Below are positions 38,024 to 61,644 of a stretch of DNA of 64,000 bases, one piece after another (position 1 is the first letter of the stretch; every line of letters starts with the position of its first letter). The notes beneath the pieces are model-generated. The model did no database searches, was not told the DNA's origin, and saw only the letters and a list, made by a program, of their open reading frames with translations. The position numbers were made by a program, and so were the translations under genes. Origin of the DNA: Alteromonas macleodii (GTDB taxonomy: Bacteria > Pseudomonadota > Gammaproteobacteria > Enterobacterales > Alteromonadaceae); assembly GCF_903772925.1 (NCBI RefSeq), contig NZ_LR812090.1, positions 624,629 through 688,628 on the forward strand, in the 5' to 3' direction.

Positions 38024-39364
38024 CTACTTTCTCAAAGAGTTGTTCGTAGTAATATCTACTATCTTAGTGGCAATAGCCGCTATGGTCGTATTTTCGCTCA
38101 TAGCTTGTTTTTGCAGTCGGCGATACGCATTGTTTTCGCTTAGTCCAAATTGTTCCATTACTACCAGCTTTGCTCGGCTTATCAGCTTCTGATCTTGAAT
38201 TGCACGTTTAGCTTCTTCAAGCTCTCGCCCCATGTCTTCTATATGCTGGGCTTGTGAACGCAGTAAGTCGTAAAAAGAGCGGTGGGCCGATAAGGTTTTA
38301 GTCTGCTCATCGAGTGACAGCGTTTTAATCTCGTCGTCTTTTGTATCTTCTGCTAAGCCGGGCATGCTGGGGTCAAACAGTAAGGTGAGCGGCGAGCCAT
38401 CATTGGCGTGCTCATCGTTAAAGCGTGTAAGCAGCTGTTGATGATTGGCCATTTCATTTTTTGCATTGGCTACTTTACTGTTAGCTTGCTGTGTTAAGGC
38501 TTCGGTCAGTGCTACCTCGATACCTTGCATTGCATCTATGCGACGAGTCGCTACATCGAACCAAACTTCTGATATTTCACCGGCAATCGGGCTGCCGTCT
38601 CCAAGCTGCGCGATCATATTTCTAAGCTGTCTAATATCTATTGCGGCAGGGCTTTTATTTAATGCTTCCAATGCCTCTTTATGCGGCTTACAGCTAAACT
38701 CACAGAATATATTGAAGTGGTGTTCTTGGGCTTGCTGAAGCGCAGCAAGCTTTTCACATAGACGCGCGTCGAAATGGGTTTCTGCAAAACCTATTGCTCC
38801 CCACGCACGTTCTTGCCCAGCATACTCTTTGGCCTGCATGAAGTTGAACAAGGCAACCAGCAAACGGGTAATGGTTGGGTCGCTTGCTATATCTGCAGCT
38901 TCAAAAATGACAGTAAGCAAACTTGCCACTAAGCGGCTGTAGGCTCGTGTTGATTCCAGTGGCGTTAGCTGTTGCTTACTGACTTGTTCTCTTAAGCGTG
39001 GCAAATAGTCTGTCGCCTGCATGGCTAAAGTAATACTGCTTAATAGGCGCGGGTTGCCTGAGGTGATCTCATCAGTTAAGTAAAGAGACTTCAAATGGCT
39101 TTTTAGCATTGACTCTGCTTGTTCACTAGCACTGACATACTGCATTCGCTCAACTTGGTAGCGCTCGGCTTTAGACGCAAGAAAGATATTGCTGGCTCCG
39201 CGCTCTTTTTGCAGTTCATGTATGAGCTCACGAACCGCAATAACAATACGACAGTTACTAGAAAGCTGTTCTAACACCGTGATTTCTGCATGTTTTGCGG
39301 CCAGCAAAAAACGTTTGGTCGCATCGCTACAAAGCGCAATGCTTTGTTCAGGTTCGTGCAGCAT
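38024..39364 (-). CDS. nasR: Nitrate/nitrite-responsive transcription antiterminator NasR (NIT-ANTAR)
   Basis: The 446-residue protein has an N-terminal NIT sensor, about residues 40-290. The helical signature VRELIHELQKERGASNIFLA carries the conserved arginine-rich nitrate site region. The C-terminal ANTAR RNA-binding domain, about 375-440, reads LISRAKLVVMEQFGLSENNA...RLQ. In Klebsiella oxytoca NasR binds the nasF leader on nitrate or nitrite and prevents termination. This gene lies 2.9 kb before nirB, and both nirB and nrtA leaders have terminator hairpins with a shared 13-nt motif. A role on those two leaders is a strong inference. Confidence 0.93.
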   Translation of the reverse strand: MLHEPEQSIALCSDATKRFLLAAKHAEITVLEQLSSNCRIVIAVRELIHELQKERGASNIFLASKAERYQVERMQYVSASEQAESMLKSHLKSLYLTDEITSGNPRLLSSITLAMQATDYLPRLREQVSKQQLTPLESTRAYSRLVASLLTVIFEAADIASDPTITRLLVALFNFMQAKEYAGQERAWGAIGFAETHFDARLCEKLAALQQAQEHHFNIFCEFSCKPHKEALEALNKSPAAIDIRQLRNMIAQLGDGSPIAGEISEVWFDVATRRIDAMQGIEVALTEALTQQANSKVANAKNEMANHQQLLTRFNDEHANDGSPLTLLFDPSMPGLAEDTKDDEIKTLSLDEQTKTLSAHRSFYDLLRSQAQHIEDMGRELEEAKRAIQDQKLISRAKLVVMEQFGLSENNAYRRLQKQAMSENTTIAAIATKIVDITTNNSLRK

Positions 39365-42076: not shown

Positions 42077-42093
42077 TTGGCACTGAACTTGGA
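42077..42093 (+). promoter_or_regulatory. Sigma-54-like -24/-12 element upstream of nirB
   Basis: TTGGCACTGAACTTGGA has the -24 TTGGCAC perfectly and a -12 TTGG in place of TTGC, with correct 12-nt G-to-G spacing. The missing C of the -12 GC weakens the call. Confidence 0.4.
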
Positions 42094-42177
42094 TAGCTAT
42101 ATCCGTAAAGTGTGTTTTGGTGATTTGTGTCAATCGCTGAAAATTGTGTGATTTATAACACTCCGTAAAATGTGTTA

Positions 42178-42252
42178 GCTAGTTACCTTGTCAGTACTAG
42201 CAAAATAGGCAACGAAGCCCGCATCAACGAAAGTTGAAGCGGGCTTTTTTTT
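42178..42252 (+). promoter_or_regulatory. nirB leader: candidate NasR antitermination element
   Basis: A stem GCTAGT / ACTAGC (42178-42183 and 42196-42201) is followed by GGC-AACGAA-GCC (42208-42219), a mini-hairpin with a hexanucleotide loop of A at position 1 and G at position 4, as in ANTAR targets. Its 3' arm is the 5' arm of the terminator. The 13-mer GGCAACGAAGCCC recurs exactly in the nrtA leader. Confidence 0.65.
42217..42252 (+). terminator. Intrinsic terminator in the nirB leader (attenuator)
   Basis: GCCCGC-A-TCAAC, a GAAA tetraloop, then GTTGA-A-GCGGGC (42217-42244), followed by eight T. It lies 22 nt before the nirB ATG, so readthrough must be regulated for expression. Confidence 0.9.
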
Positions 42253-42274
42253 GTCCCGAAAAAAGGGGAATACC

Positions 42275-44824
42275 ATGACTTCATTGGACTCAAAAACGCA
42301 AATTGTCGTCGTAGGCAACGGCATGGTGGGGCATCATTTTGTTGAGCAGCTACACCAAAGCGATGCCAATGTAGAAATAACCGTTTTATGCGGCGAGTCT
42401 CGCCTTGCGTACGACCGCGTTTATCTGTCATCTTTTTTTAGTGGCGCTAGTGCTGATGACCTAGCGCTTACCACACCCGCTCAATACGCTGAATGGGGCG
42501 TAAACGTAGTCACCAATGCCTTAGTGACCGATATTGACCGTGATAATAATAAAGTCACGACTTCAGAAGGGCAGGTGTTTAGCTACGATAAGCTTGTGCT
42601 AGCCACGGGCTCATACCCATTTGTGCCACCCATCCCTGGCAATGACCAAGAGCATTGCTTAGTGTACCGCACCATAGACGATCTACTCGCTATTGAAGCG
42701 TCAGCAGCGGTGAGCAAAGTAGGCGTTGTCGTTGGTGGTGGTCTTCTAGGTTTAGAAGCTGCGAATGCCTTAAAGCAAGCTGGGCTAGATACTCACGTGG
42801 TTGAATTCGCACCACAGCTTATGGCGGTGCAGCTAGACCAAGCCGGTGGTACCGTACTTAAAGACAAAATTGAAGATTTAGGCGTAACCGTTCATACCCA
42901 AAAAGCAACCCAAACTATCGAAGCTGGTGATACCTGTCGCTATAAAATGGTGTTTGCAGACGGCACTGCGTTAGAAACTGACATGATTTTATTCTCTGCC
43001 GGTATTCGACCTTCCGATCAGCTCGGCAGAAAATCAGCGCTAACTCTTGGTGAGCGCGGCGGTATTGTCATTGATAACCACTGCGTGACCTCTGACCCTA
43101 ATATTTACGCAGTGGGCGAATGTGCGCTGTGGGACAACAAAATTTTTGGCTTGGTTGCACCTGGTTATACCATGGCGCGCACGGCAGTAAGTCATATAAC
43201 AGGTGGCGATGCCGAGTTCGCTGGCGCAGATATGAGTACCAAACTGAAGCTAATGGGCGTAGAAGTGGGTTCTATTGGCGATGCGCATGAACGTACGGAA
43301 GGTGCCCTAAGTTACACCTACTTAAATCAGCCTGAAGGCGTGTATAAAAAGCTGGTGGTAGATAGCGAACAAAAGCTCGTGCTTGGTGCCGTACTCGTTG
43401 GCGATACCAGCGACTACGATACGCTTTTGCAATATGCGCTTAACAGCATCGAATTGCCTGAACACCCAGAGAGCCTAATTCTGCCATCATCCGATGCCGC
43501 ACCAGCATTAGGTGCCGATGCACTGCCAGACACTGCGTCTATATGCTCGTGCCTAAATGTAACGAAAGGCGACATTGTTTCAGCTATTGAAGGTGGCTGT
43601 TGCAGCGTTGGCGATGTAAAAGGTGAAACTAAAGCCAGTACTGGTTGTGGGGGCTGTGCTGCGTTGCTTAAAAATGTGGTAGATAGCGAGCTTGAAAAGC
43701 GCGGTGTTGAAGTATCAAAAGCGATTTGTGAGCACTTCAATTATACCCGACAAGAGCTGTTTCACATTGTTAAGGTTAACGGCATTCGCACCTTCGACGA
43801 GTTACTTGAACAGCATGGTGAAGGTTTAGGTTGTGAAATTTGTAAGCCTGCTGTGGGTTCTATTCTGGCATCAGTCTACAACGACTACATCCTAAAAGCT
43901 TCACACCTACCCCTGCAAGACACCAACGACATCTACCTTGGCAATATGCAAAAAGACGGTACCTATTCTGTAGTGCCTCGCGTTCCTGGCGGAGAAATTA
44001 CGCCCGAGAAGCTCATTTTGTTAGGAGAAGTGGCGAAAGAGTACAACCTTTACACCAAAATCACTGGTGGGCAGCGCATAGATTTATTTGGCGCACGCGT
44101 AGAGCACTTACCTGATATATGGGAAAAGCTAGTAGCCGGTGGGTTTGAAACCGGTCACGCGTATGCGAAAGCGCTGCGTACAGTGAAATCGTGCGTGGGA
44201 AGTACATGGTGTCGCTACGGTGTGCAGGACTCAGTAGGCACGGCTATTGATTTGGAAAACCGATACAAAGGCCTACGTGCACCGCACAAAATTAAATTTG
44301 CCGTATCGGGTTGTACCCGTGAGTGTGCAGAGGCTCAAAGCAAAGACATTGGTGTTATTGCTACTGAGCAAGGCTGGAACCTATATGTGTGCGGAAACGG
44401 CGGTATGAAACCGCGACATGCAGACCTATTTGCCACAGACCTAGATACGGAAACGCTAATCAAATACATCGACCGCGTGCTGATGTTTTATGTGAAAACG
44501 GCCGACCGCTTACAGCGTACATCGGTGTGGATGGACAACCTAGAAGGTGGGTTAGCTTATCTGCAAGATGTTGTGATTAACGATGCACTTGGCATTAATG
44601 AAGAGCTTGAAGCACAGATGGATGCTGTAGTCGACGCTTATCAATGTGAGTGGAAAACCACGATTGAAGATCCTGAATCTCGTAAGCGTTTCCGTCAATT
44701 TGTAAACAGTAGTGCCAGCGACACCAATATTCAGTTTGTTTCAGAGCGAGGGCAGGTTCGTCCAGCTACTGAAGCTGAAAAAGTAGCAGGGAAAGATCAG
44801 TTTATTCCCGTCTCTATGGTGTAG
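42275..44824 (+). CDS. nirB: NAD(P)H nitrite reductase large subunit NirB
   Basis: The 849-residue cytosolic enzyme reduces nitrite to ammonium with NirD. Order: FAD/NAD(P)H oxidoreductase (VVVGNGMVGHHFVEQL, about 9-25; GVVVGGGLLGLEAANAL), a BFD-like [2Fe-2S] segment (CSCLNVTKGDIVSAIEGG...STGCGGC), then sulfite/nitrite reductase-like domains. The siroheme/4Fe-4S cysteines lie in CVGSTWCRYG and SGCTRECAEAQ. ATG 42275 has aaaagggga upstream; the frame reaches a TTG inside the terminator T-run, which is not the start. First gene of nirB-nirD-nasA-cobA-ybiB. Confidence 0.97.
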   Translation: MTSLDSKTQIVVVGNGMVGHHFVEQLHQSDANVEITVLCGESRLAYDRVYLSSFFSGASADDLALTTPAQYAEWGVNVVTNALVTDIDRDNNKVTTSEGQVFSYDKLVLATGSYPFVPPIPGNDQEHCLVYRTIDDLLAIEASAAVSKVGVVVGGGLLGLEAANALKQAGLDTHVVEFAPQLMAVQLDQAGGTVLKDKIEDLGVTVHTQKATQTIEAGDTCRYKMVFADGTALETDMILFSAGIRPSDQLGRKSALTLGERGGIVIDNHCVTSDPNIYAVGECALWDNKIFGLVAPGYTMARTAVSHITGGDAEFAGADMSTKLKLMGVEVGSIGDAHERTEGALSYTYLNQPEGVYKKLVVDSEQKLVLGAVLVGDTSDYDTLLQYALNSIELPEHPESLILPSSDAAPALGADALPDTASICSCLNVTKGDIVSAIEGGCCSVGDVKGETKASTGCGGCAALLKNVVDSELEKRGVEVSKAICEHFNYTRQELFHIVKVNGIRTFDELLEQHGEGLGCEICKPAVGSILASVYNDYILKASHLPLQDTNDIYLGNMQKDGTYSVVPRVPGGEITPEKLILLGEVAKEYNLYTKITGGQRIDLFGARVEHLPDIWEKLVAGGFETGHAYAKALRTVKSCVGSTWCRYGVQDSVGTAIDLENRYKGLRAPHKIKFAVSGCTRECAEAQSKDIGVIATEQGWNLYVCGNGGMKPRHADLFATDLDTETLIKYIDRVLMFYVKTADRLQRTSVWMDNLEGGLAYLQDVVINDALGINEELEAQMDAVVDAYQCEWKTTIEDPESRKRFRQFVNSSASDTNIQFVSERGQVRPATEAEKVAGKDQFIPVSMV

Positions 44825-44881
44825 TCCATAGACTTAATGGTGTAGCCACTGGCTTATCAACCTTGTTAGGAGATACAAATT

Positions 44882-45250
44882 ATGACAGCTGCGCAAAACG
44901 TAATAGCGTCAGAACAGGCAGTGCAATGGCACCTTGTTTGTGAGACGAAGGACCTAGTGACAAACAGCGGCGTTTGCGCCCTTGTTGACTCACAGCAAGT
45001 GGCCATTTTCTGCTTGAAAATAAAGGGCGAAACTCAGGTTTTTGCCATTAGTAACTACGACCCTATTGGTAAAGCAAATGTGCTTTATCGCGGGCTTTTG
45101 GGGTCTATAGGCGGTGCGCCAGTTGTCGCTTCGCCGTTGTACAAAGAGCATTACTTTTTAGAAACAGGATTGTGTAAAGAACACGATGATGTATCCGTAA
45201 CGGCTTACCCTGTGAAGGTCGAGAGCGAGAAGGTTTTTGTAGGCGTTTGA
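44882..45250 (+). CDS. nirD: Nitrite reductase small subunit NirD
   Basis: The 122-residue Rieske-like subunit partners NirB. The fold pattern VALVDSQQVAIFCLKIKG, VFAISNYDPIGKA and YPVKVESEKVFVGV fits NirD. The Rieske cysteines and histidines are absent, as is usual for this family. A good Shine-Dalgarno (aggag) lies 9 nt before the ATG. It is 57 bp after nirB. Confidence 0.95.
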   Translation: MTAAQNVIASEQAVQWHLVCETKDLVTNSGVCALVDSQQVAIFCLKIKGETQVFAISNYDPIGKANVLYRGLLGSIGGAPVVASPLYKEHYFLETGLCKEHDDVSVTAYPVKVESEKVFVGV

Positions 45251-45338
45251 GCAAGCAGCCCCTATTTGAGTGCCTACATAAATAGAGCCTTCTTGCAAAA
45301 ACGCATTCAACTACTTCGATATCGAAAAAGGTAATGAA

Positions 45339-48248
45339 ATGAATATGGCTACACGACAACCCGACATGATGTCTGAACAATTAAGACAAACAACATGCCC
45401 ATACTGCGGCGTAGGGTGTGGTGTAGATATCAGTTGCAACGTAAGCAAGCGTGCCGTAACCCTGGACACTGTTAAAGGCACGCCAGAGCATCCCGCCAAT
45501 TATGGAAGATTGTGTGTTAAAGGAACAAACCTGCTTGAAACAAACGACCTAAATGGGCGTTTGCTTCACCCAACCATAGCAGGTCAATCGGTGGATTGGG
45601 ACACGGCCACCGATGTGATTGCGGATAAGATCACATCTACCATTGCGCAGTATGGCGCGGATGCCGTTGCTTTTTATGTATCAGGCCAGCTTCTTACTGA
45701 AGACTACTACATTGCCAATAAGCTTATGAAAGGTTATATCGGCAGTGCCAATATCGATACCAACTCTCGTCTTTGCATGTCATCAGCCGTAGCTGCTTAT
45801 AAGCGCGCCTTCGGTGAAGATGTGGTGCCTTGCGATTACACCGACTTAGAGTGTACAGATTTATTGGTAATTACGGGAAGTAATACGGCGTGGGCCCATC
45901 CAGTGCTTTTTCAACGTATTCAGCGGGCAAAGTTGAAGAACCCAAATATGAAGGTCATCGTTGTCGACCCGCGCAAAACTGAAACCTGTACGATAGCCGA
46001 TTTACATCTTCCTATAAAACCAGGTAGCGACGTGGCGCTGTTTAACGGCTTACTTAGCTATGCAGACGCACAAGGTAGAATAGATAGAACCACCGTCGAG
46101 AGCTATGCCGAGGGGCTTGATGAAGCGCTTGAAAGTGTAAATGGCTTAACGCTGGATGACGTGGCTAGCGTATGCGATATAGAAAAAAGCAACGTTAAGG
46201 CCTTTTTCGACGCATTCTGTGAAGCATCTAGTGCCATTACTTTTTATTCAATGGGCGTAAATCAGTCTTCCGCTGGCGTAGATAAAGCCCAAGCCATTAT
46301 TAACTGCCACCTGGCTACAGATTTAATTGCCAAAGACGGTTGTGGCCCATTTTCCATCACAGGTCAGCCCAATGCTATGGGGGGGCGTGAAGTTGGTGGT
46401 TTAGCTAACATGCTAGCTGCCCACATGGATTTAGAAAACCCTGAGCATATCAGCACTGTTAAAACCTATTGGAACGCCCCTGTTATGCCTAAAGGGCAGG
46501 GGCTTAAAGCGGTAGACCTATTTAATGCCATTGAAGAAGGAAAGGTAAAATTTGTTTGGATAATGGGGACTAACCCTGTTGTCAGTATGCCCAACCGAGG
46601 CCAAGTTGAGCGCGCACTTTCAAAGTGCGAGATGGTCGTAGTGTCTGATATTGTTGAATCGAATGATACGCTCAACTATGCTCACATTGCCCTTCCTGCC
46701 ACGGGGTGGTCGGAAAAAGACGGCACAGTGACGAATTCAGAGCGCCGTATATCACGTCAGCGGGGCATATTGCCCCCGCCAGGAAGTGCAAAACACGATT
46801 GGCAAATACTGTGCGACGTGGCGGCTAAAATGGGTTTTGGTGAGGCATTTAGCTTTACTCATCCGTCGCAAATATTCTGTGAATACGCTGGCTTAACTGG
46901 CTATCACAATAATGGCAAACGCCAGTTAGACTTATCGCCTTTGCAAAGTCTAAATGAAGCTCAGTACAACGCTCTATCACCTATCCAGTGGCCTTTTCAA
47001 AACACCGTTTTGAATATTCCCTCATCCGGTACCAAGCTTAACGAACACACTAAGCCCAACCTTATCAGTAAGCGTCCTTTTGAAGATAAGCAGTTTTCAA
47101 CGCCTAGCGGTAAGGCTAGACTCATTCCGGTAACCTATAAAGCCCCATTGCAGGTTACGTCAGATGCTTACCCTTTTGTCGTTAACAGCGGTCGAGCTCG
47201 AGATCAATGGCATACCATGACGCGCACGGGTAAAGCCGCAAAGTTACTTGCCCATATGCCGAGCGCCTCTGTCTACATAAACCCTAAAGACGCCGCTGAG
47301 TTAGGTGTTGCAAATAATGACCTCGTTTCTCTGACAAGTGCGGTGTGTCAAGACGCCCCAGTTATCTATCCGGTAAAAACAGATGCGGACATGCGCGAAA
47401 AAGAAGTGTTTATACCCATACACTGGTCGGCACAATGGGGGTCTCACAGTAAGCTAGGTGCACTTTACGCGAGCGCGGTAGATCCGATTTCAGGGCAGCC
47501 GGAATTAAAACATGCTGCAGTGGCTATTGCACCGGTACGTTACGCTACGTATGGAAAACTCTTTTTATCATCAAAACTACATTCGGCACACGACTCAAAA
47601 ACCAGCATTGATAACCCCAGTATTGATAATCCCAGCATTGATAAGCACGATACGCTAAAGAAAGTATGTGATTACTGGAATAAAACACCGCTTGAGGGAG
47701 AGGGCGCTACATCAAAAGGAAGTAGTTCTAAAGAAGCACTATCAGTATTAAACGTAGCTTCGAACAAAAGCCGTCGTGAATTTACTCAAAGCTTGATACC
47801 ACAGTTACCGGAAAACGCGGTGCTATTACAGTTCCACCATCACACTTTTTCAGTATGCCTTGCGCTTGTCGATGACCTACTGTGCTTCGCCGCATTTTTG
47901 GGTGATGAGCCAGAAAATACAGGTTCGGCTCAAGCGGAGGCACACACACAAAGCACTTGGTCAGTACCAAATGCATGGCTTGCCAGCCTATTAAATACGG
48001 CGATTTCCACTGAGTCACAACGCAATTTATTACGAGGCCAAGCGGATGAAGCATTTTTAAATGGCGATGTAGTTTGTAGCTGTTTTGAAGTGCGTGAAAA
48101 GACGATTACAGATGTCATCACCAAAGGCTGTTCATCGGTAACCGAACTTGGTAAGCAGTTAAAATGCGGCACGAACTGTGGTTCTTGCAAGCCCGCCTTG
48201 TCTGAGCTTATAGACAAGCACTTAGTTATAGAAACCCAATCTGTTTAG
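45339..48248 (+). CDS. nasA: Assimilatory nitrate reductase catalytic subunit NasA
   Basis: The 969-residue molybdenum enzyme reduces nitrate to nitrite in the cytoplasm. An N-terminal 4Fe-4S site reads CPYCGVGC...LCVKG (Cys20, 23, 27, 59). The molybdopterin domains follow (NSRLCMSSAVAAYKRAFGED; WIMGTNPVVSMPN; NSGRARDQWHTMTRTGKA). A C-terminal BFD-type [2Fe-2S] domain at about 908-960 has CSCFEV and CGTNCGSC. The linker near 755-770 has three tandem SIDNP-like units. No separate electron-transfer subunit (NasB/NasC type) is present, so the BFD tail may take electrons directly from a ferredoxin or flavoprotein. Confidence 0.95.
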   Translation: MNMATRQPDMMSEQLRQTTCPYCGVGCGVDISCNVSKRAVTLDTVKGTPEHPANYGRLCVKGTNLLETNDLNGRLLHPTIAGQSVDWDTATDVIADKITSTIAQYGADAVAFYVSGQLLTEDYYIANKLMKGYIGSANIDTNSRLCMSSAVAAYKRAFGEDVVPCDYTDLECTDLLVITGSNTAWAHPVLFQRIQRAKLKNPNMKVIVVDPRKTETCTIADLHLPIKPGSDVALFNGLLSYADAQGRIDRTTVESYAEGLDEALESVNGLTLDDVASVCDIEKSNVKAFFDAFCEASSAITFYSMGVNQSSAGVDKAQAIINCHLATDLIAKDGCGPFSITGQPNAMGGREVGGLANMLAAHMDLENPEHISTVKTYWNAPVMPKGQGLKAVDLFNAIEEGKVKFVWIMGTNPVVSMPNRGQVERALSKCEMVVVSDIVESNDTLNYAHIALPATGWSEKDGTVTNSERRISRQRGILPPPGSAKHDWQILCDVAAKMGFGEAFSFTHPSQIFCEYAGLTGYHNNGKRQLDLSPLQSLNEAQYNALSPIQWPFQNTVLNIPSSGTKLNEHTKPNLISKRPFEDKQFSTPSGKARLIPVTYKAPLQVTSDAYPFVVNSGRARDQWHTMTRTGKAAKLLAHMPSASVYINPKDAAELGVANNDLVSLTSAVCQDAPVIYPVKTDADMREKEVFIPIHWSAQWGSHSKLGALYASAVDPISGQPELKHAAVAIAPVRYATYGKLFLSSKLHSAHDSKTSIDNPSIDNPSIDKHDTLKKVCDYWNKTPLEGEGATSKGSSSKEALSVLNVASNKSRREFTQSLIPQLPENAVLLQFHHHTFSVCLALVDDLLCFAAFLGDEPENTGSAQAEAHTQSTWSVPNAWLASLLNTAISTESQRNLLRGQADEAFLNGDVVCSCFEVREKTITDVITKGCSSVTELGKQLKCGTNCGSCKPALSELIDKHLVIETQSV

Positions 48249-48260
48249 GAGCGTTAAATT

Positions 48261-49238
48261 ATGTCAATTGCATCTAGTTGGTCTTTACCGTTTTTGCGCA
48301 CCTTATTCAAACAGCAGAAACCTCTGTTTAATCTTTTTTATCGCGATGCAACTTCGAATAAGACTTCGACCACTCGTAAGCGTAATGACAATCTCAAATC
48401 TTTAGCTAAGTATACGTACCTGAACAAGTGGCTGAATACAACAAACCTTGGCGATGAGCGTCAGAAGCAGGGCCAAGTATTTATAGTAGGCGCAGGTCCT
48501 GGCGATGCAGAGCTACTTACCTTAAAAGCGCTTCGCCTTTTACAGCAAGCCGATGTGGTATTGTTTGATGCACTTGTAAGCGAAGATATTCTTTCGCTCA
48601 TTCCATCTAGTGTAGCGAAAGAGTATGTAGGAAAGCGCTGTAAGAAGCATAGTTTTACCCAAGACGCTATTTGCAAGCGGGTGGTTGAACTTGCCAGTTT
48701 GGGTCATACCGTGGTGCGACTGAAAGGTGGTGACCCAGCCTTGTTTGCGAGAACCTGTGAAGAAACCGATGCGCTAACAAAAGCTAACATTCCTTTTGCT
48801 ATTATCCCTGGTATTACAGCCGCCTCGGGTGTGTCTGCCTATACGGGTATCCCTCTAACCGACAGGCGCTGTGCCCAGTCGGTGAGTTTTATGACTGCAC
48901 ATTTTAAAGATGCAGAACAATGGCCTGAAATGGCGCCAATGGCGCAGAATGTATTAAAGCAAACCATGGTGGTTTATATGGGGCTAAGCCGCCTTGAGGG
49001 GCTTTGCAAAGGTTTGATGCAGCACAAGGTGCCATGTTCGTGGCCGGTAGCGGCAATTGAAAATGCTACATCACCTCAACAGCGCGTAATTACTGGCGAG
49101 CTTGCTAATATTTATGGCAAAGTAAAGGCGGCAAATTTAACTGGGCCCACGTTACTTATATTTGGAAAGGTGGTAGAGTCTCGACAACAGGTAAATACAC
49201 TTCTACTACATTCATCCGAGCATGCAGCAACCATTTAG
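48261..49238 (+). CDS. cobA: Uroporphyrinogen-III C-methyltransferase CobA
   Basis: The 325-residue SAM methyltransferase makes precorrin-2 for siroheme. VFIVGAGPGDAELLTLKALR begins the catalytic domain at about residue 72; VVRLKGGDPALFARTCEE and PGITAASGVSAYTGIPLT follow. The first 70 residues are a basic extension not seen in minimal SUMT enzymes and may be a targeting or partner region. It probably supplies siroheme to NirB, as the methyltransferase part duplicates CysG at 8.6 kb. It overlaps ybiB by 17 nt. Confidence 0.9.
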   Translation: MSIASSWSLPFLRTLFKQQKPLFNLFYRDATSNKTSTTRKRNDNLKSLAKYTYLNKWLNTTNLGDERQKQGQVFIVGAGPGDAELLTLKALRLLQQADVVLFDALVSEDILSLIPSSVAKEYVGKRCKKHSFTQDAICKRVVELASLGHTVVRLKGGDPALFARTCEETDALTKANIPFAIIPGITAASGVSAYTGIPLTDRRCAQSVSFMTAHFKDAEQWPEMAPMAQNVLKQTMVVYMGLSRLEGLCKGLMQHKVPCSWPVAAIENATSPQQRVITGELANIYGKVKAANLTGPTLLIFGKVVESRQQVNTLLLHSSEHAATI

Positions 49239-50208
49239 CGAATACATAAAAATTATTGGTAAGGGTCAAAAAGGGGGGCGTAGCCTTACCCGTGATGAAG
49301 CTTATCATGCCATGAAAATGGTATTGGCCAATGAAGTGACCGGCGATCAACGGGGCGCATTTCTTATGCTACTTCGCACCCGTGAAGAAACGCCAGAAGA
49401 AGTGATTGGTTTTGTCGATGCGTGCCGAGAACTGATTGAGCCAGAAGTCAAGACACTTACCCCAACGTTAGATATTGGGTGTTATGCAGGAAAACGTCGC
49501 CAGCTTCCTTGGTACTTACTGGCGGTAGCCGTACTGGCCAAAAACGGCTATTCCATTATGCTTCACGGTGCCCATGAGCCGGGTTCAGGGCGCCTTTATG
49601 CAAGCATAGCGCTACCCAAGTTAGGCCTTGTTGAGGTTACTAGTATTGCTGAGGCACACCAGCAGCTTGCTGATAAAGGCGTAACCTATCTCGACCTATC
49701 ATATTTACTGCCCGCGCTTGATACCATTATTAAGCTGCGCGACGTGTTTGGACTGCGCTCTTGCGCTAACACTCTAGCCAGGCTATTGAACCCCACCAGC
49801 GCAGAGTTTTGTGTGCAGGGGGTTTACCATATGCACCTTGATCATAAGCATTGTCGCGTTAATGAAAATTACCCGTCGATAAACGCCCTTTGTTTTCGCG
49901 GCGATGGTGGCGACCCCGAGGTTAACGGAGAGCGAGAAACCGAACTCTTCATTACCCGTAATGGTAAAACTGACGAAGTAATAATGCCGGTGGTTGCTGA
50001 CAAGTGGGCGCTTAAAGATAAAGATATGAACGTAGACGACATGCTTGATGTGTGGACAGGTAAAGCGAGTAGCCTTTACGGTGAACAGGCCATTTTAAGT
50101 ACGCTTAGCAGCTACTTAGTACTTCTTCATAATTGTGGTGTGGCGGATGCCTTATCTCAAGCTAGGGAGCTTTGGTCAAAAAGACAAAAAACGGCAATGC
50201 CATTCTAG
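49222..50208 (+). CDS. ybiB: YbiB-like protein (TrpD2-type phosphoribosyltransferase fold)
   Basis: The 328-residue protein is homologous in fold to anthranilate phosphoribosyltransferase: RDEAYHAMKMVLANEVTGDQRGAFLMLLR at the N-terminus, HGAHEPGSGRLYAS in place of the PRPP loop, and an RNPTSAEF-like ARLLNPTSAEFCVQGVYH. The YbiB/TrpD2 group binds nucleic acid and lacks TrpD activity (family knowledge). It often accompanies nitrate-assimilation genes. Its start lies within the 3' end of cobA, so translation is coupled. Role in nitrogen metabolism unknown. Confidence 0.85.
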   Translation: MQQPFSEYIKIIGKGQKGGRSLTRDEAYHAMKMVLANEVTGDQRGAFLMLLRTREETPEEVIGFVDACRELIEPEVKTLTPTLDIGCYAGKRRQLPWYLLAVAVLAKNGYSIMLHGAHEPGSGRLYASIALPKLGLVEVTSIAEAHQQLADKGVTYLDLSYLLPALDTIIKLRDVFGLRSCANTLARLLNPTSAEFCVQGVYHMHLDHKHCRVNENYPSINALCFRGDGGDPEVNGERETELFITRNGKTDEVIMPVVADKWALKDKDMNVDDMLDVWTGKASSLYGEQAILSTLSSYLVLLHNCGVADALSQARELWSKRQKTAMPF

Positions 50209-50341
50209 CTTTTCATGCGCGGCACAGCCCTTGTTTTTATCAAATTGCAGCTTAATATTTCTTGCTCGCAGCGTTTCTAGTAAGCGCTGAGAAAGCTTTA
50301 ACTAATATTACCATTTTGACCTTATTTTCGTTGTTTTCATG

Positions 50342-50607
50342 TAATACCAGTCCGTATAGATAATTACCCACTCAGCGAGATTTAAAATGTTCGTAATCGC
50401 GGCGTGTTACCGAAGGTATAGTGGCTCTACATCAAGGTGACACAACAAAGAGTACGGACGTTTTAAACTCACCCTTCGGGAAGGTCTGGCAAGCTTCCTA
50501 GCTTCATTCTGGGAATTTGAAAGGGAAACATTTCTGCATTCCCACGCTTCGCTAGGAAACTTGCCAGCGCCTTCTGAGTGGGCAATTATCTATGCGGATT
50601 GGTATAA
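50342..50607. mobile_element. MITE-like palindromic element (266 bp)
   Basis: The ends at 50342-50375 and 50574-50607 are 34-bp inverted repeats matching at 30 of 34 positions, with outermost motif ATACCA...TGGTAT. Inside, GGCAAGCTTCCTAGC (50488-50502) pairs with GCTAGGAAACTTGCC (50551-50565), and TGGGAAT with ATTCCCA, giving a long hairpin. No transposase or open frame is present. A clear target-site duplication is not visible. It fills the gap between ybiB and the chemoreceptor gene. Confidence 0.75.
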
Positions 50608-50773
50608 ACTTCAATTCCTCTGCTATCTTTAATCAAAACCGAAAAAATTAGCTTATCGTTTCAGACACTAACCGTAATTGAGAGTGACGTTGCACGTCTT
50701 ATCTGTAGTGTGCTGCCTCACCGAAGGCTTACAGGCTGAAGAATAAGCGCGCTTAGTTCATCAGGAGCAGAGG

Positions 50774-52090
50774 ATGTTTTTCAAAAATAAAGAGTTGATA
50801 GCTGAAAACTCACGTTTGCAAAAGGAAATTGAAGCATATCAGACAGTTCAGGAGGAGCTGCGCGAAGAAATGCTTTATATAGAGTTGAACCCTGACGGTA
50901 GGGTTAATGCTATTAATGACTTGTGTTCTCAAGCAACTGGCTACTCAATAGGTGAATTAGAGGGAAAGTCTCTTGAGAGTATGATGAGCCCAAATGCACT
51001 CAGAAAGCCTGCTGGTCAGGATATGCTCGGCGCCATTAAAACGCATCGCCATTGGCACGGAGCTGTTAGCTTTATGGATGCGAAAGGCCAAGAAATGTGG
51101 GTGCGAGGTATTGTACAGCCAGTTGATGATGCAAACGGTAATGTGAGATATATCGCCTTCTACATGGCCGAACAAACGCGAAATATCACTCTTAGCAACG
51201 AATTGCGCGATATGATTACTGCGCTTCACCGCTCTTCTGCTGTCATCGAGTTCAATCTAGATGGAACAATAATAACAGCGAATGACAACTTTCTTAAAGG
51301 TATGGGTTATACCCTAGAGCAAATAGAAGGTAAGCATCACAGAATTTTCTGCACCGAACAAGAGGCTAACTCAGAAGAATATAAACACTTCTGGCGGGAC
51401 TTATCTGAAGGGAAATTAGAGTCAGGTAGGTTTAAGCGAATAGACAGTAGAGGCAACGAAGTTTGGTTAGAGGCGTCGTATAACCCTATCAGAAATGAAG
51501 ACGGAAACCTTTATAAAGTCGTTAAGTTCGCCACTGTCATTACTGAGCAAATGCAGCGTGAATTTGCTATTTCTGAAGCGGCTAACGTCGCGTTTAACAT
51601 ATCGCAAGAAACGGGGGAGCAGGCCCGCAAAGGTAATGAAGTACTTAATGCTACAGTTAAAGCAATGAACGAGCTTACCACACAGATGGGGAATGCGAGC
51701 GAAGGCATCAAAGACCTCGATGAGCAATCTCAAAAAGTTGCTGATTTGGTTAAAAGTATTAGTGGAATTGCCGACCAAACCAATCTACTTGCGCTGAACG
51801 CCGCTATTGAAGCCGCTCGCGCAGGAGATCAGGGTAGAGGGTTTGCTGTAGTGGCCGATGAAGTAAGACAATTGGCTTCACGGACAAGTAGCGCTACGGA
51901 AGAGATAGTCAACGTTGTGGTAGAGAACAGAAAACTTACTGAAAATGCCGTTCAGCTTATTGAGGCTGGGCAGGAAAAAGCCCGCGACGCATTAGAATAT
52001 TCAACACAATCGGGTAACGCGATGGGTGAAATTCAAAGTGGAGCGAATGAGGTAGTGAGCGCTATCGGACAGTTCACAAAACGTCTATAG
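50774..52090 (+). CDS. Soluble PAS-PAS chemoreceptor (BdlA-like methyl-accepting protein)
   Basis: The 438-residue protein has no membrane segment. A short N-terminal coiled coil ([20 protein letters not shown]) is followed by two PAS domains with PAC motifs (about 30-145 and 150-260; [15 protein letters not shown] and [15 protein letters not shown]). The chemoreceptor signalling hairpin has [20 protein letters not shown]. The layout resembles P. aeruginosa BdlA/Aer-like energy sensors. The C-terminal bundle is short, ending GQFTKRL. Position between the nitrate reductase and nitrate transporter operons suggests nitrogen- or redox-related taxis, but that is a guess. Confidence 0.85.
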
Positions 52091-52147
52091 GGCATTGCGC
52101 CTACCAATCGTGTTGGGCGCATTTCCTCGTTTAAATTTATTCAATAG

Positions 52148-52201
52148 TGGTGCTTACTAGCTCGCACCACGGTTGAACACCTCCCCCGTTTTGGTGCACC
52201 A
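52148..52201 (+). promoter_or_regulatory. Cluster of GCACCA / TGGTGC half-sites upstream of nrtA
   Basis: TGGTGC (52148-52153), GCACCA (52164-52169) and the palindrome TGGTGCACCA (52192-52201) lie about 85-140 bp before the sigma-54-like -12 element. Half-sites match those seen upstream of nirB. They may bind NtrC, but the canonical spacing is absent. Confidence 0.35.
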
Positions 52202-52272
52202 AATCTTTCATTGTGTTGTAACTATACGCCCCTGTTTTAAATAATTTCCATAATAATCAGTATCTTGAATTT

Positions 52273-52290
52273 TTGGCACGTTGACTGCAA
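52273..52290 (+). promoter_or_regulatory. Sigma-54-like promoter upstream of nrtA
   Basis: TTGGCACGTTGACTGCAA matches the -24/-12 consensus (TTGGCACG-N4-TTGC) except one T to C, with GG and GC exactly 12 nt apart. A start near 52299 would give a leader of about 370 nt before nrtA. Confidence 0.6.
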
Positions 52291-52334
52291 ACCTTTACGT
52301 GCAAAATAACGGTGCCGTGTAAGGCAGCGAGTGC

Positions 52335-52359
52335 GACACGACTCATTAGGCGTCGTGTC
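52335..52359 (+). promoter_or_regulatory. Hairpin in the nrtA leader
   Basis: GACACGAC (52335-52342) and GTCGTGTC (52352-52359) form an 8-bp perfect stem with a 9-nt loop within the predicted leader. Role unknown. Confidence 0.35.
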
Positions 52360-52566
52360 ATGCGCAACATTTTCCATAGTGTGAATAAGAAAAATTATTA
52401 GGAATCAGTGGAGAGTAGTAAGGAAGCTCCAACTTCTCCTACATTTATGGCAAATGATAATAACAATAAAAAAGATGGTTTTATTAAGCTAAAGCTTTTA
52501 TATAACCTCCCTTTAAGATGAGGTGTGTGAGCGGGAATTCCTGACTTACCAATTACAACTTGATGC

Positions 52567-52653
52567 GTTAGTAATTACTCCGATGTTACTAACACGGCAA
52601 CGAAGCCCACCGTGCTAGACATGTAAATGTCTATAGCTGGTGGGTTTTTTTTT
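52567..52653 (+). promoter_or_regulatory. nrtA leader: candidate NasR antitermination element
   Basis: A perfect 8-bp stem GTTAGTAA / TTACTAAC (52567-52574 and 52586-52593) is followed 2 nt later by GGC-AACGAA-GCC (52596-52607), identical to the nirB leader. The mini-hairpin competes with the 5' arm of the terminator. Same order and spacing as in nirB. Confidence 0.65.
52606..52653 (+). terminator. Intrinsic terminator in the nrtA leader (attenuator)
   Basis: CCCACC pairs with GGTGGG and an inner AGACAT / ATGTCT stem closes a GTAA loop, with an AT bulge. Nine T follow. It ends 17 nt before the nrtA ATG. Confidence 0.88.
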
Positions 52654-52670
52654 GGCTACGAGGAACACGT

Positions 52671-54080
52671 ATGACTGGGTTAAAGACAACATCATTACTA
52701 AAACGCTTTAGAACGGTGGGCGCAAGCGTTTGTGCTGCACTTGTCGTCTCTGTAGCAACATTTTCAACATCTGTTTCAGCACAAGCGCCCGCAGTAGGAT
52801 GGCCAGAGAAAGAAGAGCTGAAATTTGGTTTTATTAAACTGACAGACATGGCGCCGCTTGCTGTGGCGTATGAAAAAGGCTTTTTCGAAGATGAAGGGCT
52901 TTATGTCACATTAGAAGCACAAGCTAACTGGAAAGTGCTGCTAGATCGGGTTATTGATGGTCAGCTAGATGGCGCTCACATGCTTGCAGGTCAACCGCTT
53001 GGCGCGACTATTGGTTTTGGTACGGAAGCTCATGTAGTTACTGCGTTTAGCATGGACCTAAACGGCAATGGTATTACTGTATCAAATGAGATTTGGGAGA
53101 AAATGAAGGCGCATATTTCACAGGAAAATGGCAAGCCTGTACACCCAATCAAAGCTGATTATCTCAAACCGGTTGTTGATGAGTACCGCAACGCCGGTAA
53201 ACCTTTCAACATGGGCATGGTATTTCCTGTATCTACCCACAACTACGAGCTGCGTTATTGGCTAGCAGCAGGTGGCATTCACCCAGGTTATTACGCCCCT
53301 CACAAAGGTGATACCGCAGGCCAAATAGATGCCCAAGCGCTATTGTCTGTAACGCCGCCACCACAAATGCCAGCGACAATGGAAGCGGGCACTATTTATG
53401 GCTACTGCGTAGGTGAGCCATGGAACCAGCAAGCGGTATTTAAAGGTATCGGTGTACCTGTAATTACCGATTATGAGATCTGGAAAAACAACCCTGAAAA
53501 AGTGTTTGGCGTAAGCCAAGGTTGGGCTGACAAGTATCCAAATACTCACATACGCGTGGTGAAAGCATTAATTCGTGCAGCAATGTGGTTGGATGAAAAC
53601 GACAATGCTAACCGTCCTGAAGCAGTAAAGATTCTTGCTAAAAGCAACTACGTTGGCGCAGACGAAGACGTGCTGGCTAACAGCATGACGGGCACCTTCG
53701 AATACGAAAAAGGCGACAAGCGTGACGTGCCAGACTTCAATGTGTTCTTCCGCTACAACGCTACTTACCCGTACTACAGTGATGCAATTTGGTATCTCAC
53801 ACAAATGCGCCGCTGGGGGCAAATTTCAGAAGCTAAGTCTGACGATTGGTACAAAGAAACGGCCAAAAAAGTCTACAAGCCAGAAGTTTATGCCCAAGCT
53901 GCTAAAGCACTTATCGCTGAGGGTAAAGCAAAGGCATCTGATTTCCCTGAGTTTGGAACGGAAACAGGTTATAAGCCGCCTCAGAGCGAGTTTATTGATG
54001 GCGTAACGTTTGATGGAAGCAAGCCTAACGCTTACTTAGAGCAATTTGATATTGGTCTTAAAGGCGACACTGTTCTGTAA
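52671..54080 (+). CDS. nrtA: Nitrate ABC transporter substrate-binding protein NrtA
   Basis: The 469-residue protein has an export signal (basic residues to 12, hydrophobic core 17-36, cleavage after VSAQA). The CmpA/NrtA-type body reads [40 protein letters not shown] and [12 protein letters not shown]. It binds nitrate, possibly also nitrite, in the periplasm and delivers it to NrtB. The leader carries a sigma-54-like promoter and an attenuator. First gene of nrtABC. Confidence 0.93.
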
Positions 54081-59249: not shown

Positions 59250-61172
59250 CTACATGGTGTAGTTAACAGAAAGTAGCGCACGGCGCTCTTGCCCTGCGTA
59301 GCCTACAATGTCTTCATAGTCGGTATCGAATGCATTGTCGACTTTCAACGATACCTGCCACTGACTATCAATTTGATAACCTACGTTAACGGTTGCAAGG
59401 GTATAAACTGAAAGCGCTAATGTTTGAGATGGCTCAGGGAATGGTGGGAAGAACGTATCGTAACGGCTTCCGGTGTAGGCCAGCTTGGTGTAAAAGCTGA
59501 ACTTTTCTGTACCAAAGTCAGTGGTATAAGTTATCGAGCCTTGATGGCGAGCGCGACGTAACTCGGTGCTTGTGATACCACTGTCAGTTTGTTTAGCGTC
59601 TAAATAGCTGTAGGCGGCGGTAAGGTCCCCATAGCCACTGTCCCAATTTAGCTCTACATCAATCCCTTCTCGTGAACTTTCTCCGTCGATATTATCAGCA
59701 CTGGACGCACCCAAGTCAGGTACAAATACAAAGCCGTTAATTTCGTCTTCAAGATCGGTGGTATAGGTACTGATTTGACCAGAAAGCGATTGCCAGTTGG
59801 CTTTAACACCTACTTCCCACTCTTCACTGGTTTCAGGCTCTAGGTTAGGGTTTCCGATGAAACTTGCTGGGAAATAACCAAAGCGTTCAGTAAATGTTGG
59901 TGTTTTTACGGCTCTACCATAGCTTGTGAAAACAGCGTAGTGGTCGTTAAGTTGCCATCTCAAACCGCCGCGATAACTTACGGCATTGTCGAACTCACTA
60001 TTATTGTCGAACCTTGCGCTTAATGTTGCCGTTAACGATTCAGTTAACTCGCTGTTTGCTTCTGCAAATACGCTGTAGGTGTTGTCATGTTGTTTTTGAT
60101 TAGGATCGCCAAATCCAATAGGGCCGCGCTGGTCAAAAAGACGCTGCAGATATTCAATACCACCTGCAAAATCCCAATTGTCGAGGGTGTAAAAACTGGT
60201 CCAGTTTAACTCAATACGCTCGCCAGTGGTGCCGCCTGTATCCGTACCCGATTCAGTATTATCGTTTTCATCTTTGCGATAGTGTGCACTTAATGCCGAG
60301 CGGTAGCCTGTGTTTTCAGGGGCAAATTCCCATCTTAATTTCGCACTAACTTGTGTGCCATCTGTTACGTTATCTGTATCGGCGGGAAGACCGGTTATTA
60401 CAAAGTCAGTACCGTCATAATCATTTTCATATTGAACAGTACGTAAATTCGCGATGAAGGTGTGCTCGGTAGTGGCGGCATAATTAAGGTTTATGCCGGC
60501 AGTCATATTGTCATATCCATCATCTTCGTTACCAACGCGAGATACGTTATCGCCGTCAGTTCGAATATAGCTCGCGTAGGCAGACACACCCACGTTATCG
60601 CTTTGTGAGCGCGCATTCATGCTACCCTGAAGGGTGCCTTGAGTGCCTACGCCAGCAGAAAAATCTACGTGAGAAACATTGTCGGAAAACTGGCCAGATT
60701 TAGTGGTAATGCTTAGTACACCACCAATTGCGCCGCTACCCCACCTCGCACTTTGCGGGCCGCGAAGTAGCTCAATGCGCACTACGTTGGCGCTAGTTAG
60801 GTGAGCAAGGTCAACAAGGCTCCCTTGGCCTATATCATTGGCAACAACACCATCAATTAAAACGAGTAGATGGTTAGTTTCACCGCCGCGCACGCGCAGT
60901 TCGGTTAAACCACCAGGGCTACCTGACTGAGACAAGCTAACGCCGGGTAGGCCGCGAATGAGATCGGTAAGTTGAAGTGCGCCCGAAGCTTTAATATCAC
61001 TTTCAGTGAGTACCGATACTGAACCAGGAAGCTTGGTCAATGAAATAGGCAAACGCGTGCCTGTAACCGTTAAGGTTTCGATATCTTGATCTGAAGTTTG
61101 AGCAAAGGCAGGTGTGCTTAAGCACGAAATAACTGCAGCGCTAAGGGCTGCTTTAGTAAAATGTGTACGCAT
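59250..61172 (-). CDS. btuB: Vitamin B12 TonB-dependent receptor BtuB
   Basis: This is an outer-membrane receptor of about 640 residues for cobalamin. A signal peptide (cleavage after AFA) is followed by a TonB box in DIETLTVTGTR. The plug has LPGVSLSQSGSPGGLTELRVRG and VLIDGVVANDIGQG, and a beta-barrel ends LLSVNYTM. A cobalamin riboswitch precedes it, which confirms the ligand class. ATG 61172 (MRTHFTKAAL) starts the signal peptide; the frame also runs to GTG 61202, and neither has a clear Shine-Dalgarno. Confidence 0.92.
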   Translation of the reverse strand: MRTHFTKAALSAAVISCLSTPAFAQTSDQDIETLTVTGTRLPISLTKLPGSVSVLTESDIKASGALQLTDLIRGLPGVSLSQSGSPGGLTELRVRGGETNHLLVLIDGVVANDIGQGSLVDLAHLTSANVVRIELLRGPQSARWGSGAIGGVLSITTKSGQFSDNVSHVDFSAGVGTQGTLQGSMNARSQSDNVGVSAYASYIRTDGDNVSRVGNEDDGYDNMTAGINLNYAATTEHTFIANLRTVQYENDYDGTDFVITGLPADTDNVTDGTQVSAKLRWEFAPENTGYRSALSAHYRKDENDNTESGTDTGGTTGERIELNWTSFYTLDNWDFAGGIEYLQRLFDQRGPIGFGDPNQKQHDNTYSVFAEANSELTESLTATLSARFDNNSEFDNAVSYRGGLRWQLNDHYAVFTSYGRAVKTPTFTERFGYFPASFIGNPNLEPETSEEWEVGVKANWQSLSGQISTYTTDLEDEINGFVFVPDLGASSADNIDGESSREGIDVELNWDSGYGDLTAAYSYLDAKQTDSGITSTELRRARHQGSITYTTDFGTEKFSFYTKLAYTGSRYDTFFPPFPEPSQTLALSVYTLATVNVGYQIDSQWQVSLKVDNAFDTDYEDIVGYAGQERRALLSVNYTM

Positions 61173-61274
61173 GGTTTTTATGTTGTCTTTGATGCGCTCC
61201 ACCCGAGCACATGATTAGGGAAAGTGCACGTTCTTGCTTAATTATGGATGTGAGCAAGCATACGACACCATGAA

Positions 61275-61475
61275 GTACAGGCCGGTATCCGGGCTTACTC
61301 ACCAATACCGATAAAGTAATGGCTCTTTTGCCTTCCCATCTAGTGGCGTCTAAATGCGCTGTAGCGCGTTAACGTATAAAAGACAGTGGCGAATGAAAAG
61401 AAAACGACAATGCGTTGAGTTTACCGTTGCGGGGGCAGCATCAGATTTTCACTGATTTCCCGTTTAACTCTTGTC
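61275..61475 (-). promoter_or_regulatory. Cobalamin (AdoCbl) riboswitch upstream of btuB
   Basis: On the minus strand the conserved core GATGCTGCCCCCGCAACGG is followed about 130 nt later by the B12 box AAGCCCGGATACCGGCCTG (61278-61296). GGTGAA-type and GAAGGC segments lie between. It lies directly before btuB and should repress it when cobalamin is abundant. Confidence 0.93.
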
Positions 61476-61519
61476 ACTTAGGTTGTTTTAAAGCGCGACA
61501 AAAGCACCTACACAGCGCG

Positions 61520-61525
61520 ATTATA
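61520..61525 (-). promoter_or_regulatory. Candidate -10 box for btuB
   Basis: TATAAT on the minus strand, about 45 nt before the riboswitch. A TTCGCT 18 nt upstream is only a weak -35. Confidence 0.45.
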
Positions 61526-61644
61526 TAGAACTTAAAAAGTGATAGCGAATACGGTTTCTTATACCTTACGCTTTTTCGTAACCCGCATACGGTTATTGAA
61601 CTAGGGTCATCGAAAAAGCGTTTTTCAGCAGTAAGGCAGAAGGC

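Follow-up and report, generated by a model that had tools for sequence, protein, structure and literature searches.

Nitrate assimilation leaders of Alteromonas macleodii with a single ANTAR hexaloop, probably read by NasR in trans

How can an ANTAR antiterminator act on transcripts whose leaders appear to carry one of the two hairpins expected of its targets? This question is raised by a 64,000-nucleotide (nt) stretch of DNA from Alteromonas macleodii (contig NZ_LR812090.1, positions 624,629 to 688,628; hereafter the window), where two nitrate assimilation units, headed by nirB and nrtA, are preceded by leaders in which an ANTAR-like hairpin, P2, overlaps an intrinsic terminator. The published model demands an upstream hairpin, P1, with a hexaloop having A at position 1 and G at position 4 (A1/G4; PMC3369936, PMC3369931, PMC7496416, PMC8934654), and in the two-hairpin ANTAR model the closing pair of P1 is C:G in systematic evolution of ligands by exponential enrichment (SELEX; Ramesh 2012). 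The minimal binding site has already been reduced to one hexaloop, both being kept for antitermination (PMC8934654). The two leaders of the window lack a canonical P1, and we consider it quite likely that both are nitrate-responsive antitermination switches worked in trans, through one hexaloop, by NasR.

The initial annotation reported an identical 13-nt motif, a strong terminator and an upstream stem-loop in each leader, and all coordinates are confirmed. GGCAACGAAGCCC is present exactly at 42208-42220 in the nirB leader and at 52596-52608 in the nrtA leader, overlapping the 5′ arm of the terminator. Its first 12 bases, GGCAACGAAGCC, have two exact matches in the genome (4,665,060 bases, one contig), both in these leaders, and 23 matches when one mismatch is allowed; a motif count restricted to the window with two mismatches allowed gave three, a number equalled or exceeded in 8 of 100 shuffles and hence not significant. 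The motif contains the putative P2 antiterminator hairpin GGC-AACGAA-GCC, an A1/G4 hexaloop with a C:G closing pair (42208..42219 in the nirB leader and 52596..52607 in the nrtA leader, both on the + strand). It has the features of P2 in two-hairpin ANTAR target RNAs, namely, a hexaloop, at least 3 base pairs, A1 and G4, and overlap with the terminator 5′ arm. The terminators with their T runs span 42216..42252 and 52603..52653 (both +) and fold at −20.6 and −23.5 kcal/mol, respectively; the last base of each T run, at 42252 and 52653, lies 22 and 17 nt ahead of the ATGs at 42275 and 52671. By itself the P2 hairpin is weak (−2.8 kcal/mol), as expected for an antiterminator that needs a protein to hold it. 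None of 200 shuffles folds as well as the complete leader in either case (z = −5.06 for nirB, −4.75 for nrtA). When the stretch beginning just before the upstream hairpin and ending with P2 is folded by itself, the nrtA leader is clearly structured (z = −2.73, matched by 1 of 200 shuffles) and the nirB leader is not (z = −0.96, matched by 38 of 200). Among the 11 places in the window where an A1/G4 hexaloop has its 3′ arm overlapping a terminator, only these two directly precede nitrate genes. A search of the window against Rfam at gathering cut-offs found a cobalamin riboswitch and nothing ANTAR-like.

For the comparison of P2 among relatives, protein similarity served to locate the genes, and the sequence upstream of them was read for the hairpin without demanding A1/G4. 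Where stretches had been fetched by the position of nasR instead of by the motif, a P2-type hairpin followed by a T run precedes 57 of 58 nirB, nrtA and transporter genes, with A at loop position 1 in 57/57 and G at position 4 in 57/57, while other positions vary. Over all loci, which were partly fetched by the motif, the hairpin precedes 125 of 128 genes and has A1 and G4 in every one; loop positions 3, 5 and 6 vary, position 2 varies in three, and the terminator stems below P2 are strongly divergent. Because A1 and G4, the loop positions to which the initial annotation had drawn attention, never vary, P2 is, judged by its sequence, a genuine ANTAR hexaloop.

The motif pattern is also kept throughout much of the genus, the conservation on which the earlier proposal had been made to depend. 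In its strict form it occurs in 45 of 59 Alteromonas genomes, twice in 21 of them, and in 7 of 247 genomes of the order (six from the genus, one from family f6). A relaxed P2-plus-terminator pattern gives 103 matches in 48 of the 59 genomes, several of them away from nitrate genes, versus four for the reversed pattern. nasR was found in 47 of the 59 and nirB in the same 47. Forty-six of these nirB genes, found by protein search, have the relaxed pattern no more than 120 nt upstream, and the remaining one (genome G251) has a P2 with loop AACGAC, so that 47/47 possess such a leader. The 48th genome with a relaxed match, G260, has neither nasR nor nirB. This co-occurrence fits NasR as the reader of the leaders and supports that role without proving it. 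Outside the genus, five of 17 family stretches (L229, L231, L233, L234 and L235) contain nasR, 0/15 other reference genes in the fetched 20 kb, and no leader.

In the window, nasR (38024..39364, − strand) encodes a 446-residue protein with NIT and ANTAR domains (Pfam, 170.3 and 58 bits, both above cut-off). As previously described, the gene lies near the nirB leader, 2.8 kb away; the nrtA leader is 13 kb away. The protein matches Klebsiella NasR (PDB 4akk) with an E-value of 1.5e−36, with NIT and ANTAR in one chain. It is the sole ANTAR match in the 4.67 Mb genome and hence, if the leaders are ANTAR targets, the regulator of both. The initial annotation had proposed NasR control of both leaders; conservation of the motif in the genus and the presence of one ANTAR protein speak for this, making NasR dependence probable. 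The contact sites K341, K347, E358, aromatic 362 and M370 (Klebsiella numbers) are kept, the 362 site being Tyr. Likewise, the contact residues of Enterococcus faecalis EutV (PMC8934654) align with the window NasR free of gaps; each of the 11 matches the EutV chain at one offset, and the sites of Lys143, Lys149, Glu160, Tyr164 and Met172 are retained. In the proposed mechanism, the terminator would form when nitrate is missing and transcription would stop ahead of nirB and nrtA. When nitrate is present, NasR would bind the A1/G4 hexaloop of GGC-AACGAA-GCC, and P2 would take up the terminator 5′ arm, allowing RNA polymerase to read into nirBD-nasA and nrtABC. NasR is probably the protein that binds P2, nitrate probably the trigger, and one hexaloop probably sufficient.

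Canonical P1 was sought as a C:G-closed A1/G4 hexaloop with at least 3 unbroken pairs, no more than 120 nt upstream of P2. The set comprised 127 of 150 hexaloop-terminator candidates (109 from the genus, four from genomes G052 and G243, 14 from outside); the 23 dropped ones had no nitrate gene within 400 nt or no C:G or U:G closing pair. The loop is absent from both window leaders, and its frequency in Alteromonas, 3 of 109 leaders, is at chance level (shuffle mean 3.6); the G052 and G243 leaders have it in 0/4. The same test detects it in 8/8 leaders of control family f18 (shuffle mean 0.6), which we take to be enterobacterial since two of its eight NasR proteins match Klebsiella NasR 4akk (E = 2.6e−143 and 2.2e−69), and in class-level leaders outside the genus it is found in three of five of nrtA type and in the single nirB leader. 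Of 21 leaders from the family's other genera, three have such a loop, all of them transporter leaders with the loop AGAGGT, where folding gives another hairpin. In Microbulbifer, Marinobacterium, Thiomicrospira and others, canonical P1 is missing in 12 of 16 leaders next to nasR.

The hairpin that does stand upstream of P2 (42178..42201 in the nirB leader, 52567..52593 in the nrtA leader, both +) had been taken for an imperfect P1, and if it were a degenerate but working one, the leaders would be canonical two-hairpin ANTAR switches. It is significant (z < −1.5) directly upstream in 39 of 42 nrtA leaders, and in the nrtA group nearest the window (11 sequences, that is, 10 relatives besides the window, with L056 left out) the stem is paired in 72/72 cells, with a covariation score reached by 4 of 500 shuffles; in 3 of the 109 genus leaders a hairpin upstream of P2 does carry the canonical loop. 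However, a significant hairpin is often missing from nirB (14/37 have it) and transporter (5/24) leaders, and one of the eight stem pairs is changed on both sides, a compensatory change no more frequent than in shuffles. The loops range from 3 to 14 nt, share no common sequence and in several cases lack any G, and canonical ones are at chance level. The earlier notion of a slightly imperfect P1 therefore has to be revised. Comparison identifies the hairpin instead as a real hairpin of free sequence in the linker, often absent in relatives, and we regard a working degenerate P1 as improbable. Strong terminators in AT-rich leaders would also fit attenuation under other control, by a leader peptide or by Rho or Nus factors, unrelated to NasR. 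Against that explanation, the A1/G4 hexaloop is invariant amid variation, the 12-mer is restricted to the two leaders, and leaders are absent where nasR is absent (the match in G260 aside); we hold it to be highly improbable.

Another possibility is that NasR reads two elements, the second of which is linear: ACAAY(NNR), separated from the downstream P2 by some 14 unpaired nt, would replace the P1 hexaloop, and the variable hairpin would merely bridge the gap between them. Among 60 non-redundant (thinned) leaders, including those of G052 and G243, ACAAY occurs in 41 versus 14.5 expected (at most 22 in 60 shuffles) and ACAAYTT in 15 versus 1.9 expected. Controls are lower: the other strand (RTTGT) gives 18/60 and windows further upstream give 8/59 and 6/59. 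With the hairpin skipped, 34 of the 41 elements fall 12-18 nt from P2, whereas random positions give 13.1 (standard deviation 2.8); the raw median distances of 15, 31 and 42 nt in transporter, nirB and nrtA leaders become 15, 14 and 14 unpaired nt. As this unpaired distance is constant, the hairpin resembles an insert in a linker whose reach does not change. There is no P1 from which the close fixed P1-P2 spacing could be measured, and it is ACAAY that keeps a fixed unpaired distance instead. At loci fetched after the motif had been defined, ACAAY lies 15-16 nt before P2 in five of seven nasR-divergent Microbulbifer and Marinobacterium leaders, a result that moved our estimate of the linear-element reading slightly upwards, from unlikely to tentatively possible. 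The element of the window nrtA leader is ACAACTTG (52555..52562, +), assigned from sequence and leader comparison. By contrast, ACAAY is missing in 19 of the 60 leaders, including the window nirB leader, which has only AAAATGTG (42167..42174, +), a weak candidate for a degenerate ACAAY picked out by eye, 17 nt from P2 with the hairpin skipped. In other genera of the family, ACAAY is found in 8 of 21 leaders and at 11-18 nt in five of the 21, all nirB leaders, transporter leaders having it in 0/8; of 16 leaders in other groups, the five from Microbulbifer and Marinobacterium are the only ones with ACAAY near P2. Other A/C-rich pentamers cluster at 12-18 nt as well (CAAAY 11/13, CAYAA 17/24), so that an A-rich unpaired linker may account for some of the signal. 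Furthermore, motif and distance were found on the set first used for testing, relatedness within it was only thinned, and another factor could bind ACAAY. Hairpins upstream of ACAAY yielded no shared loop. The ACAAY region was also considered as boxA-like, a reading given up because there is little information at positions −16 to −1. Taken together, ACAAY is a conserved element, while a role for it in NasR recruitment is a bold reading that we consider possible rather than probable.

The NasR of this family departs from its homologs at two arginines. R340 is described as near-universal and essential, R340A abolishing antitermination by Klebsiella NasR (PMC7496416). The Klebsiella R340 and R366 sites, which are the Arg142 and Arg168 sites of EutV, are Gln392 and Gln418 in the window NasR. 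At the R340 site, 53/53 rows of the family plus G243 have Gln, His or Leu and 16/16 outside rows have Arg; at the R366 site, 51 of the 53 have Gln and 15 of the 16 have Arg. In these counts the 34 genus rows include the window NasR twice and stand for 33 of the 47 nasR-bearing genus genomes, and class rows L178, L179 and L181, which had no usable ANTAR alignment, were left out. We considered whether loss of P1 is coupled to the R340 change and rejected this as stated. Microbulbifer NasR has Arg at the R340 site in 9/9 (and Gln at the R366 site in 9/9), yet five of its six leaders lack canonical P1. Both arginines are retained in Marinobacterium and in three Thiomicrospira rows, where P1 is absent in 5/5 leaders (two in L268, and L274, L275 and L277). 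In T. microaerophila (L278) the R366 site is Gln and the leader has a canonical loop. On the alignments, the Alteromonas family has indeed altered the R340 site, but leaders can be without P1 where that site is unaltered. That the autoinhibitory partners of R340 and R366 changed along with them is only half borne out: most family members have a non-acidic residue at the D201 site, but the E191 site is poorly conserved also outside the family. Separately, nasR matches with one in-frame stop were seen in the leader-bearing genomes G251, G286, G793, G883 and G860.

Several points weigh against control through a single hexaloop. Klebsiella NasR binds P2 alone at about 12 µM versus 1 µM for P1P2 (PMC7496416); together with the loss of function in R340A, this means that a one-hexaloop target read by an arginine-less NasR would be weak unless compensated. 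EutV needs both hexaloops for antitermination (PMC8934654). Our P1 test is strict and missed a loop on a shorter stem that was seen by eye in L178, one of the two class-level nrtA-type leaders that it scored as lacking P1; another such loop was seen by eye in L204, which does not belong to that count. A few degenerate P1s could therefore escape the test. Canonical-looking P1 does exist in three genus leaders and in 4 of the 16 leaders of other groups. Finally, nasR and nirB are fully linked in the genus, so that inheritance of the cluster would explain their co-occurrence as well as NasR control does.

The initial annotation further proposed one antiterminator for both reduction and transport units. 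In relatives the set extends beyond these two, but control of this kind has precedents, ANTAR regulons with several leaders being known for nitrogen genes (PMC3369931). Leaders of the same type precede genes for a formate/nitrite transporter, a NarK-like major facilitator superfamily transporter and cyanase. The strict transporter-leader pattern is found in 21 of the 59 genus genomes and is absent from this one. In G267 (C1:2479801), G288 (C1:3091208) and G298 (C1:1834496) transporter leaders lie about 1 Mb from nasR, so that their control would be in trans. At L126 (1852-4983), and also at L119, L120, L122 and L124, a formate/nitrite transporter gene that has a P2-type leader of its own adjoins nasR, with a PP2C phosphatase-kinase fusion behind it; in two cases cyanase also follows. 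In L042 and G263 a strict P2-plus-terminator leader precedes a porin-like gene at the place expected for nrtA. Marinobacterium litorale (L268) has leaders on both sides of nasR, both without canonical P1.

Compared with known systems, the switch proposed here resembles NasR-nasF of Klebsiella oxytoca, sharing a NIT-ANTAR regulator, an A1/G4 P2 over the terminator 5′ arm and nitrate assimilation genes. Unlike nasF, the Alteromonas leaders have no canonical P1 and carry a free-sequence linker hairpin, the R340 and R366 sites of their NasR are Gln, and the window genome has two leaders, with further kinds in relatives. The P2 forms also differ, GGC-AACGAA-GCC in Alteromonas versus GGAY-AAAGGC-GTCC in Klebsiella nasF, although the latter, the form of enterobacterial leaders, is found before the transporter gene in relatives. 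With the EutV leaders of E. faecalis (eutP, eutG, eutS, eutA) they share mutually exclusive P2 and terminator, several leaders per ANTAR protein and the five retained contact sites. They differ in having one hexaloop, where EutV needs two at close spacing (PMC8934654, PMC3369931), and in Gln at the R142 and R168 sites. In NasS-NasT systems (Paracoccus, PMC3795266; Bradyrhizobium, PMC6759348) an ANTAR protein likewise acts on nitrate-gene leader RNA, but the sensor is a separate protein, whereas the Alteromonas ANTAR protein carries its own NIT domain.

The genes served by the two leaders were assigned from open reading frames and Pfam. nirB (42275..44824, +) is the first gene of a unit extending to 50208, followed by nirD, nasA, cobA and a glycosyltransferase-3-like (trpD-like) gene. 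nrtA (52671..54080, +), encoding an NMT1_2-type binding protein, opens nrtABC (to 56054), that is, binding protein, permease and ATPase. Ahead of nirB, 131 nt before P2, lies a sigma-54-like element (42077..42093, +; TTGGCAC-N5-TTGGA) with GG-N10-GG spacing, so that its −12 part departs from the consensus; at 20 of 60 related sites, elements with up to 2 mismatches were seen 83-113 nt before P2. A gene resembling PAS-type chemotaxis receptors (50774-52090) separates the nirB unit from the nrtA leader and holds the same place in relatives L118 and L123. The cobalamin riboswitch (61263-61526, −; 93.1 bits) lies ahead of an open reading frame at 59250-61202 (−) that by eye resembles a TonB receptor.

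Among the literature matches listed, none deals in its title or the opening of its abstract with these leaders or with NasR targets of one hexaloop, although the 2012 supplementary tables may list some; PMC12388587, on nitrate genes in Alteromonas, makes no mention of 'nasR'. One-hexaloop NasR leaders thus appear to be new, whereas multi-leader control by ANTAR proteins is itself known. A more far-reaching scenario, which we put forward as rather doubtful, is that the switch has been rebuilt in Alteromonas and other gammaproteobacteria around one hexaloop and a single-stranded ACAAY held within constant reach by a hairpin, serving a multi-operon regulon and, in one family, read by an ANTAR domain without the essential arginine. 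In the current model ANTAR antitermination needs two hexaloops, even though the EutV crystal structure shows one contacted at a time. Here, the natural leaders of a whole regulon strictly keep one hexaloop and have lost the other, and the NasR of one family is without the essential arginine. Covariance searches demanding two hexaloops would miss such regulons. The need for P1, the role of R340 and the linear replacement of P1 are now directly testable with purified protein and short RNAs.

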